Positions 4,360 through 9,413 of a stretch of 64,000 nt of DNA are shown piece by piece. A program made the translations under genes and the position numbers. The stretch lies in NCBI RefSeq assembly GCF_030409875.1, contig NZ_JAUFQR010000003.1, forward strand, positions 800,537 through 864,536. The letters are read 5' to 3'. Numbering within the stretch: the first letter of the stretch is position 1; every line of letters begins with the position of its first letter. This DNA comes from Chryseobacterium tructae (GTDB lineage Bacteria; Bacteroidota; Bacteroidia; Flavobacteriales; Weeksellaceae). The notes under the pieces were generated by a model. It ran no database searches. It saw nothing but the letters and a program-made list of their open reading frames with translations, and was not told the origin of the DNA.

Positions 4360-4677
4360 TTAGTTGCAGCCAGAGCAATAAGAACGATCCACATACTGCT
4401 TGCTATTTCCGGAGTAATAATAACAACCTCCTCTTGAGCCAACATACAATTGGTTACCATTGTAAGTGCAACCTCTACTGGTTGAGCTTGAATAGGATCT
4501 TGGTGAAGAATAGCTAGATCTTGTTGATTTGCTTTTTCTGCTGGTTTTAGTTTTTCCTTTTCTTGGGTTTTTGGTAAGTAATTCTTTTGTTGAAGTAATG
4601 CTGGCTGTAGAGGCCGAAAAGTTAGTAGGTAATAAAAGTCCCAGTCCCAGAAGACTGGTGAAAAGTAGTTTTTTCAT
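4360..4677 (-). CDS. Small secreted basic protein with PBCV-basic-adaptor-like C-terminus
   Basis: 105 residues. The signal peptide is MKKLLFTSLLGLGLLLPTNFSAS. A strongly basic, Ser/Lys/Arg/Tyr-rich linker covers about 38-68. The C-terminus CTYNGNQLYVGSRGGCYYYSGNSKQYVDRSYCSGC has the pattern (G-x-RGGCYY...G-KxYVDRSYC) of the small motif called PBCV basic adaptor, whose role is unknown. Five cysteines in the exported part suggest disulphides. It is last of three minus-strand genes (26 bp after the DUF6232 gene) downstream of the inverted-repeat promoter at 5342-5386, so it probably belongs to the regulon of the neighbouring two-component system (inference). Confidence 0.65.
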   Translation of the reverse strand: MKKLLFTSLLGLGLLLPTNFSASTASITSTKELLTKNPRKGKTKTSRKSKSTRSSYSSPRSYSSSTSRGCTYNGNQLYVGSRGGCYYYSGNSKQYVDRSYCSGCN

Positions 4678-4703: not shown

Positions 4704-5084
4704 TTATCCTCGATGAATGATAGCTTCATTTAAAGCGCTTACAATTTTTTGAATATAATCTCTGTCTTTTGAAACAATGCTATTAGCTTCTCCTGCATTT
4801 GTGCTTATTCGAACAGCGTATTCATTTTTAATGTAGAAAATTAACCAAACCCCTAAACCTAAAAGTATTATTCCTATCCAAAAAATATCTTTTGACAAAA
4901 GAAATGCTAGTCCTACAAATATCATTAGAATGGCTTTTGTCTTACTTTTAATAATTTCAAAAATATGAACAGAAGAAATATTTCGCATTGCATATGTTTT
5001 TGATTGGGTGACAAATCTTGATTGTGTAACAACTACAGAGCTATCTTTATAAAATGTAGTTTCAGTTGGGGTTGAGGTTTCCAT
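4704..5084 (-). CDS. DUF6232 family membrane protein
   Basis: 126 residues. The N-terminal part (FYKDSSVVVTQSRFVTQSKTYAMRNISSVHIFEI) is the beta-strand start of DUF6232-type proteins. Two adjacent hydrophobic helices follow (about 51-64 and 67-86, AILMIFVGLAFLL and FWIGIILLGLGVWLIFYI), then a cytoplasmic-looking tail. The function of the family is not known. It is the middle gene of a three-gene operon, 21 bp after the gene at 5106 and 26 bp before the secreted basic protein. Confidence 0.65.
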   Translation of the reverse strand: METSTPTETTFYKDSSVVVTQSRFVTQSKTYAMRNISSVHIFEIIKSKTKAILMIFVGLAFLLSKDIFWIGIILLGLGVWLIFYIKNEYAVRISTNAGEANSIVSKDRDYIQKIVSALNEAIIHRG

Positions 5085-5105: not shown

Positions 5106-5312
5106 TTATTTGGTATGACAGTCCTGAGAGCAATAATAACAACCATTTGATTGAGGGTAGTCTTTTTTTGCTTCTTTTACAGCTTCTTTACATGAAGAAA
5201 ATGTACCTAGATATTTTCTATTATCAATGGTTGGGAGCCTATAGCAGTTTTCATTATGAACCTCATGATCGCCATTACTTTGTGCATTCTTGTTTACATA
5301 ATACTTTTTCAT
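5106..5312 (-). CDS. Conserved small Cys/His-rich protein
   Basis: 68 residues, no signal peptide or membrane segment. It has five cysteines and several histidines: HNENCYRLP, FSSCKEA and a final SNGCYYCSQDCHTK. The CxxC...CH end could bind zinc or be redox active (inference). The opening MKKYYVNKNAQSNGDHEVH looks like a compact, conserved small-domain family rather than a spurious frame. It is first in the operon, 30 bp downstream of the -7 element at 5342-5349 whose upstream dyad is one of three shared with the two-component genes. I do not recognise a function. Confidence 0.6.
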   Translation of the reverse strand: MKKYYVNKNAQSNGDHEVHNENCYRLPTIDNRKYLGTFSSCKEAVKEAKKDYPQSNGCYYCSQDCHTK

Positions 5313-5341
5313 GTATTTTATTTTAATTGGTTTAACATTCC

Positions 5342-5386
5342 AAAAGTATAACCCTTTATAGGCCTATCCTTACGGGAAACCGTAAA
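5342..5386 (-). promoter_or_regulatory. Dyad operator and promoter for the three-gene small operon
   Basis: On the minus strand, TACTTTTG (5342-5349) fits the Bacteroidetes -7 consensus TAnnTTTG. Exactly 22 bp upstream is the inverted repeat TACGG-GAAA-CCGTA (5372-5385; 6-bp arms if the outer T/A pair is counted). The dyad sits where a -33 element would be, which fits an activator site centred near -42. The same arrangement occurs at 6178-6221 and 8362-8405. Confidence 0.65.
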
Positions 5387-5394
5387 AACAAAAA

Positions 5395-5418
5395 ACCTTT
5401 CAAAAAGTTGAAAGGTTG
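5395..5418 (-). terminator. Terminator after the response regulator gene
   Basis: A 9-bp stem (AACCTTTCA with TGAAAGGTT) and 6-nt loop, followed on the minus strand by a T-run. It separates the regulator from the small operon downstream. Confidence 0.8.
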
Positions 5419-5444
5419 TATAAAATTACAGGCTTTGTTTTCCC

Positions 5445-6122
5445 CTAAATAATTCCCAGATCTTTACAAAAAGCAACAAGCTGTTCATTATTGGTGATCC
5501 CAAGCTCTTCTTTCAGGCTATTCAGCTTCTTTTCTACACTGCTCAGACTGTTGGGTTTGATGTTGTTGTTTTGGAGATATACAGGGATGTTTTTTTGAAG
5601 AACGCCTTGTGATAGGAGAGAAACAAGAGTGGTGTCATATTCTGAAAACTCATAGCTGTTTAGCTTTTTTACTTCCTGTTTAAGATCAAGCGAGAGATAA
5701 TTGTTCCCTTCATATACTGAGGCAATTGCTTTTTTTAAGTCTTTGGCATCATTTCTTGCCTTACGGACAAAGCCGTTAATTCCATATTCTGTAAAAAGAG
5801 AATTGATAATGCCGGATTTGTGTTCAGAAGAAAACACAATAGTTTTCAACGAAGGCTGTAGATCTTTTATGGTTTTGATGAGTTCTTTACCGTCTTTAAT
5901 CTTTTGCTCATGATGATCTTCTTCAAAGGAGAGATCCGTAATTAATAAGTCATAGAAATTAGTTTCCCGGATTGATTTTTGAATTTTTGCTACTGCATCA
6001 TCACAATAATAAACATAGTCTGCATCGGAAATATTAAGATCTTCCAGTGTTCTCTGTACAGAAATACTGCTGCTTTCGTGGTCTTCGGCTATTAAAATTT
6101 TTTTGAACATTTCTTTTTTCAT
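5445..6122 (-). CDS. Two-component response regulator (REC plus LuxR-like HTH)
   Basis: 225 residues. The receiver domain covers about 7-140: acidic pair E13/D14, phospho-acceptor D63 in LLITDLSF, conserved Ser pair at 98-99 and Lys121 (FVRKAR). The C-terminal part (about 155-225) has the divergent LuxR/NarL-type helix-turn-helix common in Bacteroidota regulators, ending NEQLVAFCKDLGII. It lies 2 bp after the histidine kinase, its likely partner. An extra promoter inside the 3' end of the kinase gene (6178-6221) carries the TACGG-N4-CCGTA dyad. I infer that this regulator binds that dyad and activates its own expression and that of 5106-4360 and 8418. ATG at 6110 is an alternative start. Confidence 0.85.
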   Translation of the reverse strand: MKKEMFKKILIAEDHESSSISVQRTLEDLNISDADYVYYCDDAVAKIQKSIRETNFYDLLITDLSFEEDHHEQKIKDGKELIKTIKDLQPSLKTIVFSSEHKSGIINSLFTEYGINGFVRKARNDAKDLKKAIASVYEGNNYLSLDLKQEVKKLNSYEFSEYDTTLVSLLSQGVLQKNIPVYLQNNNIKPNSLSSVEKKLNSLKEELGITNNEQLVAFCKDLGII

Positions 6123-6124
6123 TT

Positions 6125-7777
6125 TTAAGATGTGGGGAATGAAATATTGACTTTCAATCCTTTTTCTGTTGTATTGTCAAAAATAATTGACCCCTTTATT
6201 TTTTCAATACGGGAAACCGTATTTGATAATCCATTTCCATGGATAATTTCTCCTGGGATTCCAATTCCATTATCCTTATACTGAATGTTTATTTGGGTAT
6301 TATTTTTTTCAAATTTAAAAACCACAAGACTGGCCTGACTGTGCTTTTTCATATTGACCAACAGCTCACGGATAACTTGAAAAATTTCATTTTGTACAGT
6401 TCCACTTACTTCATTCCATATATTTTGACTGTTTCCGGTAAGAAACGGTTTTATATGATCGCTTTTAAAGGAATCAATGAGTGTGAATATTTTTTCAGCA
6501 AATTCTACGGTATCTTTAGTCTCCGGTTTTTCATAGGATATATCTCTGGATTTTTCATAAACGAATTCCAGTTCATCCAGAGCCTTCTCTTTATCAAAAT
6601 TTTCCTGATTTTCAATTTTTGTCATTACTTGATAAATCCCGTTGGCTACTACATCATGGACTTTTTTAGACATTTTGAGTTGAGTATTTTTTACTTCAAG
6701 TTCCTTTTCTTGCTGAAGTTTTTTTTGTCTTTTCTGATATAAAATGATACCGATAATTAGAAGAGCAACAAGTAACGCTGAAAGAAGATATAGCCATAAT
6801 AGCTGGATCTCATTCTCTGCTTTCTGTAATTTTAGTGACTGATTTTCTAAATTCTTTTTTTCTACATCATACCTTATGGTTGCAAATTGATTTTTTGCTT
6901 TGTTTCGTGAAATTTGAACACTGTCATTTAGTTTCTGAAAATCTTCAAAATAGACCAGATTATTGTTGGGTTTTAGGCTAATTATTTTTTGTAATGCCTG
7001 AAGCTGATCTTCAATACTATTATTTTTTTTAGCCGTATTGAGCATTTGCTCGGCAAAATAGAGTGCCTTCTTTTTATCTGAATCAGAATAAAAATTTGAT
7101 AAAGTGGCATAACTCGAATTTTCACCTACACTGTTGTCTGCTCTTTTTCTAATTTCAAGAGCTTTATAAAATTCAGGGAGAGGATTATAATTTGTATTAT
7201 CAAAATTTTTAGCTCTTGCTAAATTATTAATGACCATAGCATATTTCAAACTATCTGTTGTAGGTAATGCAAGCTGTATATTTTTTATGGCTTCTTTATA
7301 GTCTTTTAAAGTAATCTGTACCGTCCCAAGATTATTTAGAATCATATATCTATACTCTTTAGCAGATGTATATTGAAGCGCTTTTTTATAATACGTGATA
7401 CAATCTTCAAATTCATAAAGATAGGAGGAACATATGGCCATGCTATTAAAATTTGAAGCAAATGTTTGACGGCTTATGCTGTCCTCTTTTTTTCCGAGAT
7501 ATCGATCTGCTTCAAGTGAGGTTTCAATACTTCCATAGTAATCTCCTTTACTTTCCTGAAGTATTGCCATATTTACCAGTGCTTTGGCTGCGCCTACAGA
7601 GTCTTTTGTATCCAGATAAGCATTTTTTGCCAAGTTGAAATAATAGAATGAAGAACCTGTAGTATCGGTTTTAGCTTTTTCATAATACTTCTTGGCTATT
7701 CCATTTCCCGGCTCAATCTGCTTGTCATTGCATGAGAATAGTAGTATAGCAAGAGATATGATAAAGAGTTTTTTCAT
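6125..7777 (-). CDS. TPR-containing sensor histidine kinase (lipoprotein-type N-terminus)
   Basis: 550 residues. The N-terminus MKKLFIISLAILLFSC is a lipoprotein-like signal with Cys16. Residues of about 25-300 are tetratricopeptide helices (for example YYEKAKTDTTGSSFYYFNLAKNAYL and ITYYKKALQY), placed outside the inner membrane. One membrane helix spans about 326-347, followed by a coiled-coil linker. The H-box is KKVHDVVANGIYQ with His374 (HisKA_3-like). The HATPase domain follows with N-box ELLVNMKKHSQ, G1 DNGIGIP and G2 HGNGLSNTVSRI. It should phosphorylate the regulator encoded 2 bp downstream. The signal is unknown; small secreted proteins are encoded next door. The codons for NTVSRI in G2 overlap the promoter dyad at 6208-6221. 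Confidence 0.85.
   Translation of the reverse strand: MKKLFIISLAILLFSCNDKQIEPGNGIAKKYYEKAKTDTTGSSFYYFNLAKNAYLDTKDSVGAAKALVNMAILQESKGDYYGSIETSLEADRYLGKKEDSISRQTFASNFNSMAICSSYLYEFEDCITYYKKALQYTSAKEYRYMILNNLGTVQITLKDYKEAIKNIQLALPTTDSLKYAMVINNLARAKNFDNTNYNPLPEFYKALEIRKRADNSVGENSSYATLSNFYSDSDKKKALYFAEQMLNTAKKNNSIEDQLQALQKIISLKPNNNLVYFEDFQKLNDSVQISRNKAKNQFATIRYDVEKKNLENQSLKLQKAENEIQLLWLYLLSALLVALLIIGIILYQKRQKKLQQEKELEVKNTQLKMSKKVHDVVANGIYQVMTKIENQENFDKEKALDELEFVYEKSRDISYEKPETKDTVEFAEKIFTLIDSFKSDHIKPFLTGNSQNIWNEVSGTVQNEIFQVIRELLVNMKKHSQASLVVFKFEKNNTQINIQYKDNGIGIPGEIIHGNGLSNTVSRIEKIKGSIIFDNTTEKGLKVNISFPTS
6178..6221 (-). promoter_or_regulatory. Internal dyad promoter for the response regulator gene
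   Basis: On the minus strand the -7 element TATTTTTG (6178-6185) fits TAnnTTTG, and 22 bp upstream lies TACGG-GAAA-CCGTA (6208-6221, part of a 7-bp-arm repeat at 6206-6223). Its central 14 bases are identical to those at 5372-5385. Transcription would start near 6171, about 50 bp before the regulator start codon. The site lies wholly inside the kinase coding sequence. Confidence 0.55.
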
Positions 7778-7781
7778 GGAT

Positions 7782-7802
7782 TACTTTGTGGTATCCAAAG
7801 TA
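7782..7802 (-). promoter_or_regulatory. Short dyad upstream of the histidine kinase
   Basis: Inverted repeat TACTTTG-N7-CAAAGTA, 5 bp before the kinase start codon. It could be an operator or a 5' RNA hairpin. It is unrelated to the TACGG dyads. Confidence 0.3.
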
Positions 7803-7808
7803 AAAAAA

Positions 7809-7836
7809 AAAGAACAGATTATACAATCTGTTCTTT
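7809..7836 (-). terminator. Terminator after the small secreted-protein gene
   Basis: A perfect 12-bp stem (AAAGAACAGATT and complement) with an ATAC loop and a long T-run on the minus strand. It separates the gene at 7845 from the kinase. Confidence 0.88.
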
Positions 7837-7844
7837 CGTATTTA

Positions 7845-8051
7845 TTAAGGCAACATACCCGGAGGGGGAAGTTGGCCTGTATTGCCTCCTGTATTACCTC
7901 CGTTTCCATGGCCATTTCCGTCACCTGTTTCCGTTTCAGGGTCTTCTTTGGCACTTAGAGTGATGATATTTGGCTTTTGATTATCATTATGGTGTGTTGC
8001 GTTGGCATTATTAGTAAATGCTAAAAGTAGCATCATAAAAAACTGGATCAT
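7845..8051 (-). CDS. Small secreted Gly/Asn-rich protein, MIQF...GQLPP family
   Basis: 68 residues. MIQFFMMLLLAFTNNANA is a short hydrophobic signal-like start. After it come an acidic stretch (KEDPETETGDGN), a GN/GH-rich segment GHGNGGNTGGNTG and the ending GQLPPPGMLP. It aligns from end to end with the 56-residue product of 9243-9413 (MIQF..MLL.LAF.NN..NA near the start and GQLPP at the end), so the two are paralogues flanking the gene at 8418. I recognise no characterised family. Its own terminator lies immediately downstream. Proximity to the sensor kinase suggests, but does not show, a role as an exported peptide within the same system. Confidence 0.6.
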   Translation of the reverse strand: MIQFFMMLLLAFTNNANATHHNDNQKPNIITLSAKEDPETETGDGNGHGNGGNTGGNTGQLPPPGMLP

Positions 8052-8150
8052 TCCTTAAAAATTTAAAATTTGTGCATTTCTGTAGTTGCCGGTGAAACTG
8101 ATCACAGGTAGAGCTACACGATTAAAAAATTTGAAGCGCTTCTAAATTTT

Positions 8151-8218
8151 TTGGGAAGTGAACCTTCAAAAACGGAGGAGAAACATCTGCTTCCCAACCC
8201 GGAGTTTTCCTCCGTTTT
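8151..8218. other. Interleaved inverted repeats (possible pseudoknot RNA or switch)
   Basis: The 366-bp gap between the divergent genes at 8051 and 8418 holds two interleaved inverted repeats. TTGGGAAG (8151-8158) pairs with CTTCCCAA (8190-8197). The run at 8169-8182 pairs with 8205-8218 (14 bp, one G-U). The order A-B-A'-B' is a pseudoknot topology. The longer stem ends in T-runs on both strands, like a bidirectional terminator, yet no gene ends here. A 10-bp palindrome GAAGCGCTTC lies just to the left (8133-8142). Confidence 0.5.
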
Positions 8219-8361
8219 ATCTGGTGATTTTTGAAATCAGTTTTGTAAATTTGTTTGTAATGTTTTGTGTTTCACTGATCTCTGATGCAAAGATGCTACA
8301 GAAAAGAGGGCAAGGGTTAGAAAGATTCTGGAAAGTTTTTGGAAAGTTTTTTGGTGAGCTG

Positions 8362-8405
8362 TACGGAAACCCGTAATGTTTTTGATTTAGGACTTCATAA
8401 TTTTC
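8362..8405 (+). promoter_or_regulatory. Dyad operator and promoter for the gene at 8418
   Basis: TACGG-AAAC-CCGTA (8362-8375) is followed, after exactly 22 bp, by TAATTTTC (8398-8405), which matches TAnnTTTG except at the last base. Transcription would begin close to 8410, leaving a leader of only about 8-14 nt before the start codon. It is the third copy of the arrangement at 5342-5386 and 6178-6221. Confidence 0.55.
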
Positions 8406-8417
8406 AACACAATAACC

Positions 8418-9191
8418 ATGAGTATGTCAAAATTTTTATCCGAAAAGAAAAAGTTATTAGAAGATGTTTATAAAAAAGCTTCATCTGAAGCCACAGAGAC
8501 ATCATTTAATGGAATTATTCAATATCTTGATCGAACTTTGAAAGACGAATTTGAACCGCTTAGTTATAAATCTTTTGAAAATTATTATAAAGCTATAGTA
8601 GAAAATGATGAAGATTATAATATAAAAACATCTACTTTGGATAATTTAAGTAGATATTTAGGATATGAAACGTTTAAAGATTATCGATCTGAATGGAGAA
8701 CAATGGAATATACTATTCAACAAGCTATTTCTAAAATTGTAATAACAATCATTAATAAGCCTATTCTTGCGATGCCAGGGGTTTTAAAACAAAATGGATT
8801 AGGAATAGCCGGAGCCTTTTTGATTATCAGTGTTCTAATAGGGAATCATTATTCATCAAAAGGGAAGAGTAATACCCCGTTAAGTTTTTTTGGGGCATCT
8901 GTTGAGGAAAGAAGTTGTATGTTTTGGGAAGATAATGAGTACAGGTTGGCCAATTGTGAAGATAAAAATCCCCAACGTAGTCTTATACCAAAAGATACTG
9001 TTCAGTTGAGGTATTTTAAAAGGATTACAAGAAAGGATACTCTTACGATAGATAATGCCTTGGGAAAGACTTGGTATTCGAAGTACAATGGGAATGTTGA
9101 GTTTTTTACGATGGATGGAGTAGACCCTGATACAGGACGGGAACTAAGAGCTTCTACAGCTTATATTATTGATAAATATGCCGGGTATTGA
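8418..9191 (+). CDS. Single-pass membrane protein of unknown function
   Basis: 257 residues; a second ATG is at 8424. The N-terminal half (about 1-95) is helical and charged, with the pattern SYKSFENYYKAIVENDEDY...LDNLSRYLGYETFKDY seen at the start of various Bacteroidota proteins of unknown function. One membrane helix follows at about 124-141 (GLGIAGAFLIISVLIG). The exported C-terminal part (142-257) holds RSCMFWEDNEYRLANCED, whose two Cys could form a disulphide, and a Thr/Tyr-rich end. The topology resembles a membrane-bound sensor with an extracytoplasmic domain (inference). The dyad promoter at 8362-8405 ties it to the nearby two-component system. Confidence 0.6.
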   Translation: MSMSKFLSEKKKLLEDVYKKASSEATETSFNGIIQYLDRTLKDEFEPLSYKSFENYYKAIVENDEDYNIKTSTLDNLSRYLGYETFKDYRSEWRTMEYTIQQAISKIVITIINKPILAMPGVLKQNGLGIAGAFLIISVLIGNHYSSKGKSNTPLSFFGASVEERSCMFWEDNEYRLANCEDKNPQRSLIPKDTVQLRYFKRITRKDTLTIDNALGKTWYSKYNGNVEFFTMDGVDPDTGRELRASTAYIIDKYAGY

Positions 9192-9242: not shown

Positions 9243-9413
9243 TTATTTTTTCGGAGGTAATTGCCCATTATCTCCACTTGTATCCTCAGTTGATTCACCT
9301 GAATTAGATATTGAGCTTTGTGCCGTTATTATGGCTATGTTATTTGATGCTATTGCATTGGTTGTATTGTTGGGAAACGCTAATCCCAATAGCATTACAA
9401 TAAATTGAATCAT
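9243..9413 (-). CDS. Small secreted protein, paralogue of the one at 7845-8051
   Basis: 56 residues read from ATG at 9413: signal-like MIQFIVMLLGLAFPNNTTNA, then IASNNIAIITAQSS, an acidic Ser/Thr/Gly stretch (SGESTEDTSGDNG) and the end QLPPKK. The start and end match the 68-residue protein at 7845-8051. The conserved ends with a variable middle suggest selection on export and on the Pro-rich tail. It shares the terminator at 9199-9227 with the gene at 8418. The fragment at 2278-2320 carries the same type of tail. No known domain is recognised. Confidence 0.6.
   Translation of the reverse strand: MIQFIVMLLGLAFPNNTTNAIASNNIAIITAQSSISNSGESTEDTSGDNGQLPPKK

Follow-up and report, generated by a model that had tools for sequence, protein, structure and literature searches.

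A two-component system with three dyads, each 22 bp from a -7 element or near match

The window analyzed here, a 64,000-nucleotide stretch of the Chryseobacterium tructae genome (contig NZ_JAUFQR010000003.1, positions 800,537 to 864,536), contains a two-component system and three copies of the dyad TACGG-N4-CCGTA, a candidate operator. The system consists of a sensor histidine kinase with TPR repeats and a HATPase_c domain (6125-7777, minus strand) and a response regulator composed of a receiver and a NarL/RcsB-type helix-turn-helix (5445-6122, minus strand). The true start of the regulator is probably at 6113, because its relatives begin at MFKK. The kinase has one predicted membrane helix within approximately residues 322-350 and an N-terminus that appears lipoprotein-like by eye.

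The receiver domain of the regulator matched PF00072 (E = 3.4e-9), and D11, D60, and K118 were invariant in 20 sequences, which provides the phospho-acceptor aspartate, the acidic pair, and the lysine of a receiver. Pfam returned no GerE domain match in this protein at an E value of 1. A phmmer alignment to RcsB extended over residues 8-218, and the AlphaFold model (predicted local distance difference test (pLDDT) score of 88.7) had full-length RcsB as its best PDB matches (E = 6e-13); from this alignment and the predicted fold, the C-terminal region is modelled as a GerE/LuxR-type helix-turn-helix. Relatives of the regulator are already named RcsB in some database entries. Some genomes carry the regulator gene as a tandem pair, including those of loci L191 and L192 and others in the genus; at both of these loci a near-dyad (TACGTGAAACCGTA) lies 22 bp from TACTTTTG, upstream of the regulator copy nearer the query.

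A scan of the window located exact dyads at 5371-5384 (TACGGGAAACCGTA, 5' of an operon of small proteins), at 6208-6221 (inside the kinase coding sequence), and at 8362-8375 (TACGGAAACCCGTA, 5' of a membrane protein gene that starts at 8418). Each is separated by exactly 22 bp from a -7 element of the form TAnnTTTG or a near match to it, namely TACTTTTG at 5341-5348 (minus strand), TATTTTTG at 6178-6185 (minus strand), and the non-consensus TAATTTTC at 8398-8405 (plus strand). A first-pass annotation had reported the same three dyads with a -7 element or near match 22 bp away at each; its coordinates were correct for the sites at 6208 and 8362 but one base too high for both elements of the first site. 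It had also found no further copy in the window, and our scan agreed even when one mismatch was allowed. The sequence flanking the sites lengthens the operator consensus to TTACGG-N4-CCGTAA. From the promoter at 5341-5348, transcription is predicted to start near 5336, with a leader of about 24 nt.

This arrangement is difficult to attribute to chance, as the first-pass annotation had argued. Shuffled versions of the window contained a mean of 0.24 dyads, and three copies were reached in 0 of 100 shuffles. TAnnTTTG occurs in the window at 0.0006 per position per strand; the chance of finding it at +22 on either strand for two of three dyads is then approximately 4e-6, and that of finding it with at most one mismatch at all three is approximately 1e-5, both rough figures as the spacing was chosen after inspection.

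The site recurs across the genome, the genus, and the phylum

The whole 5.63-Mb genome contains nine dyads, compared with two for a reversed control. TAnnTTTG lies 22 bp from the dyad at five of the nine and 23 bp away at one more; for the six dyads outside the window, the corresponding counts are three and one. The genes found behind distal sites include a TerB_C/SngA-like gene (L004), a DUF4236 gene (L005), a short unknown gene (L002), and, at the site with the 23-bp gap (L001), a type I methyltransferase.

When any of 31 gap lengths was permitted (dyad-N(8-38)-TAnnTTTG), the pattern was present in 95 of 98 genomes of the genus; the reversed pattern gave 7 matches in total across the same genomes. 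Among the 150 genus matches listed, the gap was 22 in 123, 23 in 12, and 21 in 7. Elsewhere in the phylum (296 genomes), 51 of 60 matches had a gap of 22. The proposal that the three sites define a local regulon is therefore rejected, with six dyads elsewhere in the genome and the same geometry recurring across the genus and other Bacteroidota. The search of genome and relatives that the first-pass annotation had suggested shows distant copies that keep the spacing, rather than unconserved random copies.

Presence of the site follows presence of the regulator

Regulator homologs were identified in 30 of the 296 phylum genomes, in a search at E 1e-15 that scored at most nine candidates per genome and so may have missed some regulators. 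The 22-bp site was present in 28 of the 30 genomes with a regulator and in 0 of the 266 without one (p = 3e-37, uncorrected for kinship). The same held within a single family (f2), where the site was found in 19 of 21 genomes with a regulator and 0 of 8 without (p = 1e-5). In the two pattern-matched phylum genomes where no regulator was found, the gap was 13. These counts uphold the earlier assignment of the dyads to this two-component system.

The two phylum genomes with a regulator and no canonical site each have a variant. G117 carries TATGG-N4-CCGTA, and G198 (locus L216) carries TACAG-N4-CTGTA twice, 22 bp from TAnnTTTG and beside a divergent regulator, which possibly reflects a shift in specificity. 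We considered whether one residue of the recognition helix sets operator specificity, as an E-to-D change accompanies the TACAG sites at L216. However, L217 has the same change together with TACGG sites, and this idea was discarded. Agreement between site and regulator was looser within the genus, where G029 lacks both.

A predicted promoter inside the kinase gene

The dyad at 6208-6221 covers kinase residues 519-524, the N-T-V-S-R-I of the ATPase G2 box, and its -7 element covers residues 531-534. The first-pass annotation did not mention that this site sits in coding sequence. The -7 element at 6178-6185 is predicted to be the promoter of the response regulator.

We compared 58 regulator loci, which were the best-scoring matches of a protein search that did not use the motif and are not a random draw. 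At 56 of them (34 exact), all but L191 and L207, the regulator is preceded at 40-160 nt by a dyad that carries no more than two changes and is followed 22 bp on by an intact TAnnTTTG. Downstream of the regulator gene, a further site of this kind was found at 49 of the 58 (44 exact).

Codon usage could be scored at 52 loci, after omission of six that were unscorable (L180, L191, L192, L200, L206, and L212). The G2-box arginine is encoded by CGT in 52 of 52, while CGT accounts for 101 of 827 arginine codons (12%) elsewhere in these kinases; the codon preceding it ends in C in 50 of 52, and G is the third base of the Thr/Ala/Val codon in 46 of 48, against a background of 331 of 3590 (9%). The residues at the operator codons vary (T, A, V, or M; V, D, G, or E; S, T, N, I, or K). 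In a synonymous-constraint test on 42 kinases under 80% identity (274 alignment columns), the three most constrained columns were operator codons, and two codons of the -7 element ranked 7 and 9. Seven other kinases of this genome have a comparable N-x-x-x-R box, and none uses CGT there (they use AGA, AGG, or CGG). The dyad and -7 element in the kinase gene thus look like a promoter for the regulator that is held within a protein motif.

Genes downstream of the site include many phage-defence genes

To characterize the genes behind the site, 60 genus sites with a gap of 22 were picked by hand from the 150 listed, excluding regulator-gene sites and a few others; four of them (L285, L287, L301, and L311) are still only about 5 kb or less from the regulator. 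A downstream open reading frame was obtained for 54, and 41 of the 54 proteins were scanned singly with PADLOC, so the counts below are lower bounds. The control comprised 78 genes from 40 of 60 random regions drawn from the same genome set, and was used because the contrast in Pfam content with genes of the same neighbourhoods was weak. At 1e-20 or better, at least 18 of the 54 downstream proteins matched PADLOC versus 0 of the 78 random genes (p = 1e-8), and at 1e-10 or better at least 21 of 54 versus at most 5 of 78 (five families, once each; p = 9e-6); these p values ignore orthology and are overstated, as related targets are not independent. The genes behind the site are therefore enriched in phage-defence genes, relative to controls that are unmatched for island membership.

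The matches include type III modification enzymes and Gabija-, Hachiman-, Wadjet-, Kiwa-, CBASS-, and Shango-like proteins. Individually, those at 1e-10 or better are type III methyltransferases (L284, L314, L322, L328, and L333), other methyltransferases (L309 and L313), GajA (L282 and L332), SngA (L294 and L316), LmuA/Avs1a (L289), a CBASS cyclase (L291), KwaA (L326), JetA (L327), HamA (L335), PDC-S06 (L278), and PDC-M62A (L324), with weak matches to PDC-S02 (L281), PDC-S54 (L297), and an RT-protease (L299). In a wider set of 130 downstream proteins, HSDR_N (6) and DUF4236 (6) were among the most frequent Pfam families, and DNA methylase (3), DUF1508 (3), TerB_C (2), and TerD (1) were also identified.

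Viral copies of the site

Viruses share the operator: the full site was found in 109 viral stretches, whereas a swapped dyad gave 16 and an incorrect spacing gave 6. We examined 40 operator-bearing viral records, picked by hand and including the five already known to hold a free-standing copy of the regulator's DNA-binding domain. This protein of about 70 aa, with a PNSLS(S/H)(V/I)EK helix, is encoded in 5 of the 109 stretches (L404, L423, L429, L446, and L376) and in 0 of 21 control stretches. Its gene directly follows the operator promoter in four of these five, a placement that supports the DNA-binding domain as the likely reader of the site.

An ATG begins exactly 4 nt after the -7 element at 24 of 115 viral sites, which is the commonest distance (14 have it at 2 nt), and at 4 nt the +1 position would fall on its A. 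In five viral stretches (L342, L382, L402, L411, and L441), the operator is followed first by a gene for a similar protein of about 66 aa, and another small phage-like protein follows the operator at L331 in a genus genome.

Genes neighbouring the two-component system

The operon behind the 5371 dyad encodes a 68-aa Cys/His-rich protein (5106-5312, minus strand), a DUF6232 protein (4704-5084, minus strand), and a small exported-looking Ser/Cys-rich protein (4360-4677, minus strand). The family of the first forms the largest cluster among the first genes after the operator (9 of 130, regulators left out), and a protein similar to the third sits after an operator at L301.

On the plus strand, 8418-9191 encodes a membrane protein with a helical N-terminal domain that is conserved beside the kinase gene. 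It is present in 94 of 98 genus genomes, and at 28 of 30 loci of this type the flanking sequence contains the N-terminal part of the kinase. Its operator, with at most one mismatch, was found at 29 of 30 orthologous loci, the other (L270) lacking the start. The first-pass annotation described the -7 element of this gene as off by one base, and this deviation is itself conserved in relatives: all 29 loci have a non-consensus element, either TAATTTTC-like at 22 bp or CTATTTTG-like with TA at 23 bp. The predicted fold of the protein (mean pLDDT 65.6) had no PDB match at E 0.001.

Two short peptide genes (7845-8051 and 9243-9413, both minus strand) encode a hydrophobic N-terminus and a C-terminal GQLPP. 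Of 30 related loci, 19 had at least one GQLPP peptide gene in a regex search (L250 and L259 had three each), and the middle of the peptide is variable. It is possible that these peptides are the ligand of the TPR kinase.

Interpretation and alternatives

We consider it probable (about 0.77) that the dyad is the binding site of the response regulator, and that the locus encodes an autoregulated RcsB-like two-component system that would activate a defence-rich regulon. In this model the TPR sensor kinase would phosphorylate the regulator, a dimer of which would occupy TTACGG-N4-CCGTAA centred 41.5 bp upstream of the transcription start. This position follows from the Sigma-A promoters of Flavobacterium psychrophilum, which share the TAnnTTTG -7 box and place it at -12 to -5 (PMC9723704); the dyad would then span -48 to -35. 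Its centre near -41.5 and its fixed distance fit the class II activation that the first-pass annotation had proposed, as predicted from geometry. Once bound, the regulator would act as a class II activator and bring RNA polymerase to promoters of the TAnnTTTG type. One target would be its own gene, through the operator and -7 element in the ATPase-domain codons of the kinase, so that regulator output may rise independently of the kinase in a positive feedback. The other predicted targets are the small-protein operon, the 8418 membrane protein, and the scattered defence and stress genes.

Several observations weigh against this interpretation. Aside from the two phylum genomes with a regulator and no canonical site (G117 and G198) and the regulators that the phylum search may have missed, the genus includes genomes with regulator matches and no canonical site (G060, with two regulators, and G088, in which the match contains a stop) as well as pattern matches where no regulator was found (G031 and G039, the latter 87% complete). 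G054 retains nine pattern matches with an interrupted regulator match. In the C. tructae genome itself, TAnnTTTG is missing from the 22-bp position at four of nine dyads. The named-genome matches listed also include a few records under the labels Clostridium or Bifidobacterium (L042, L048, L082, and L093), which are chance or mis-binned. For the defence enrichment, defence families (DndB, Cas2, and GmrSD) are present among the comparison genes of the same neighbourhoods too, so defence islands may explain part of it, in addition to the dependence between orthologous targets described above. PADLOC had no match for the window genes at 5106, 4704, and 8418.

These last three genes, which adjoin the system, could instead indicate that the regulator controls itself and its neighbours, that the defence genes are incidental passengers, and that the true theme is envelope or general stress. 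TerD, TerB_C, DUF4236, Tex, DUF1508, and YidD-like genes (YidD named by eye) also follow the site, the kinase looks periplasm-facing, and the nearest fold is that of RcsB, an envelope-stress regulator. We regard this as the most serious alternative, although a doubtful one, given that strong PADLOC matches account for at least 18 of the 54 targets at sites other than those of the regulator gene and for none of the 78 random genes, and that these matches belong to many unrelated systems. That the dyads are repressor sites appears improbable. Their position near the promoter would permit blocking, but repressor sites usually vary in position, while a fixed centre at -41.5 and a fixed phase are typical of class II activators; the conserved non-consensus -7 element of the 8418 gene likewise suits an activator-dependent promoter.

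Equally improbable, in our judgment, is that the main reader of the site is another DNA-binding protein, such as a free-standing relative of the domain like those of phages, with the two-component regulator secondary. Proteins of this kind with the same recognition-helix sequence do occur right after the operator in viral DNA. However, none was found in 104 of the 109 viral stretches with the site (of which part was fetched), the site tracks the two-component regulator across the phylum, and one operator lies inside the gene of that regulator's partner kinase. There is very little left to recommend the view that the dyad in the kinase gene is a mere codon pattern of the ATPase G2 box. Both elements are within conserved ATPase motifs, and conserved-residue spacing would set their 22-bp distance at the protein level; yet the Arg and Thr/Ala/Val codons are locked despite variation in the residues, this codon choice is not made in seven paralogous kinases of the same genome, and the same spacing is found at non-coding sites. 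We therefore ruled out the codon pattern of the box as the sole explanation.

Beyond the regulator-operator assignment, a broader scenario is conceivable, although we hold it tentatively and think it less likely than its alternatives taken together. This would be a danger-sensing system of Bacteroidota in which a periplasm-facing TPR kinase, possibly triggered by short exported GQLPPP peptides whose genes adjoin its own, drives an RcsB-like activator that acts on an operator in the kinase ATPase codons and on interchangeable defence promoters, and phages that took the operator and the free-standing domain might follow or tap the host alarm.

Relation to known systems and significance

Like RcsB, NarL, and FixJ, the regulator has a receiver and a C-terminal DNA-binding domain, and RcsB is its best full-length match in both sequence and fold. 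Identity to RcsB is only about 23%, however, and the partner is a TPR kinase, whereas RcsB uses the Rcs phosphorelay. The RcsB box also differs from TTACGG-N4-CCGTAA. Unlike in the NarL/FixJ family, Pfam recognizes the receiver of this regulator but no GerE domain.

NarL-class regulators, class II activation, and regulon-wide immune control are all already known, and Gac/Rsm is the nearest precedent. In Pseudomonas, this pathway places many phage-defence and antagonism factors, in a set that differs between species, under a single two-component system, with GacA acting post-transcriptionally through small RNAs and RsmA, as supported by proteomics and plaquing (PMC11888443). The likeness lies in one system over many defence genes, predicted here from sequence and in another phylum. 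Gac/Rsm control is post-transcriptional, while the operator suggests that this regulator would act directly at each promoter rather than through small RNAs. WYL-domain regulators are mostly local to one island. They too control defence genes transcriptionally, as repressors of several phage-defence pathways (PMC11888443), whereas a genome-wide activator is proposed here.

The word "bacteroid" does not occur in the available text of the Gac/Rsm paper (PMC11888443), nor do TACGG or LuxR in the available main text of the F. psychrophilum promoter paper (PMC9723704). Our search of the open-access literature retrieved no paper that describes this operator or, for Bacteroidota, a defence regulon under a two-component system, and likewise none on the operator location in the kinase gene or on the viral copies.

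How the timing of many costly defence systems is set jointly is largely an open question, and relatively few transcriptional mechanisms are stated to be known (PMC11888443). The operator within the kinase offers a clear case of an operator and promoter preserved in a protein-coding motif through synonymous constraint. With an operator this short and its distance fixed, the predicted regulon can be read from the sequence of a large group of Bacteroidota, and the unknown genes behind it are pointers to new defence genes.

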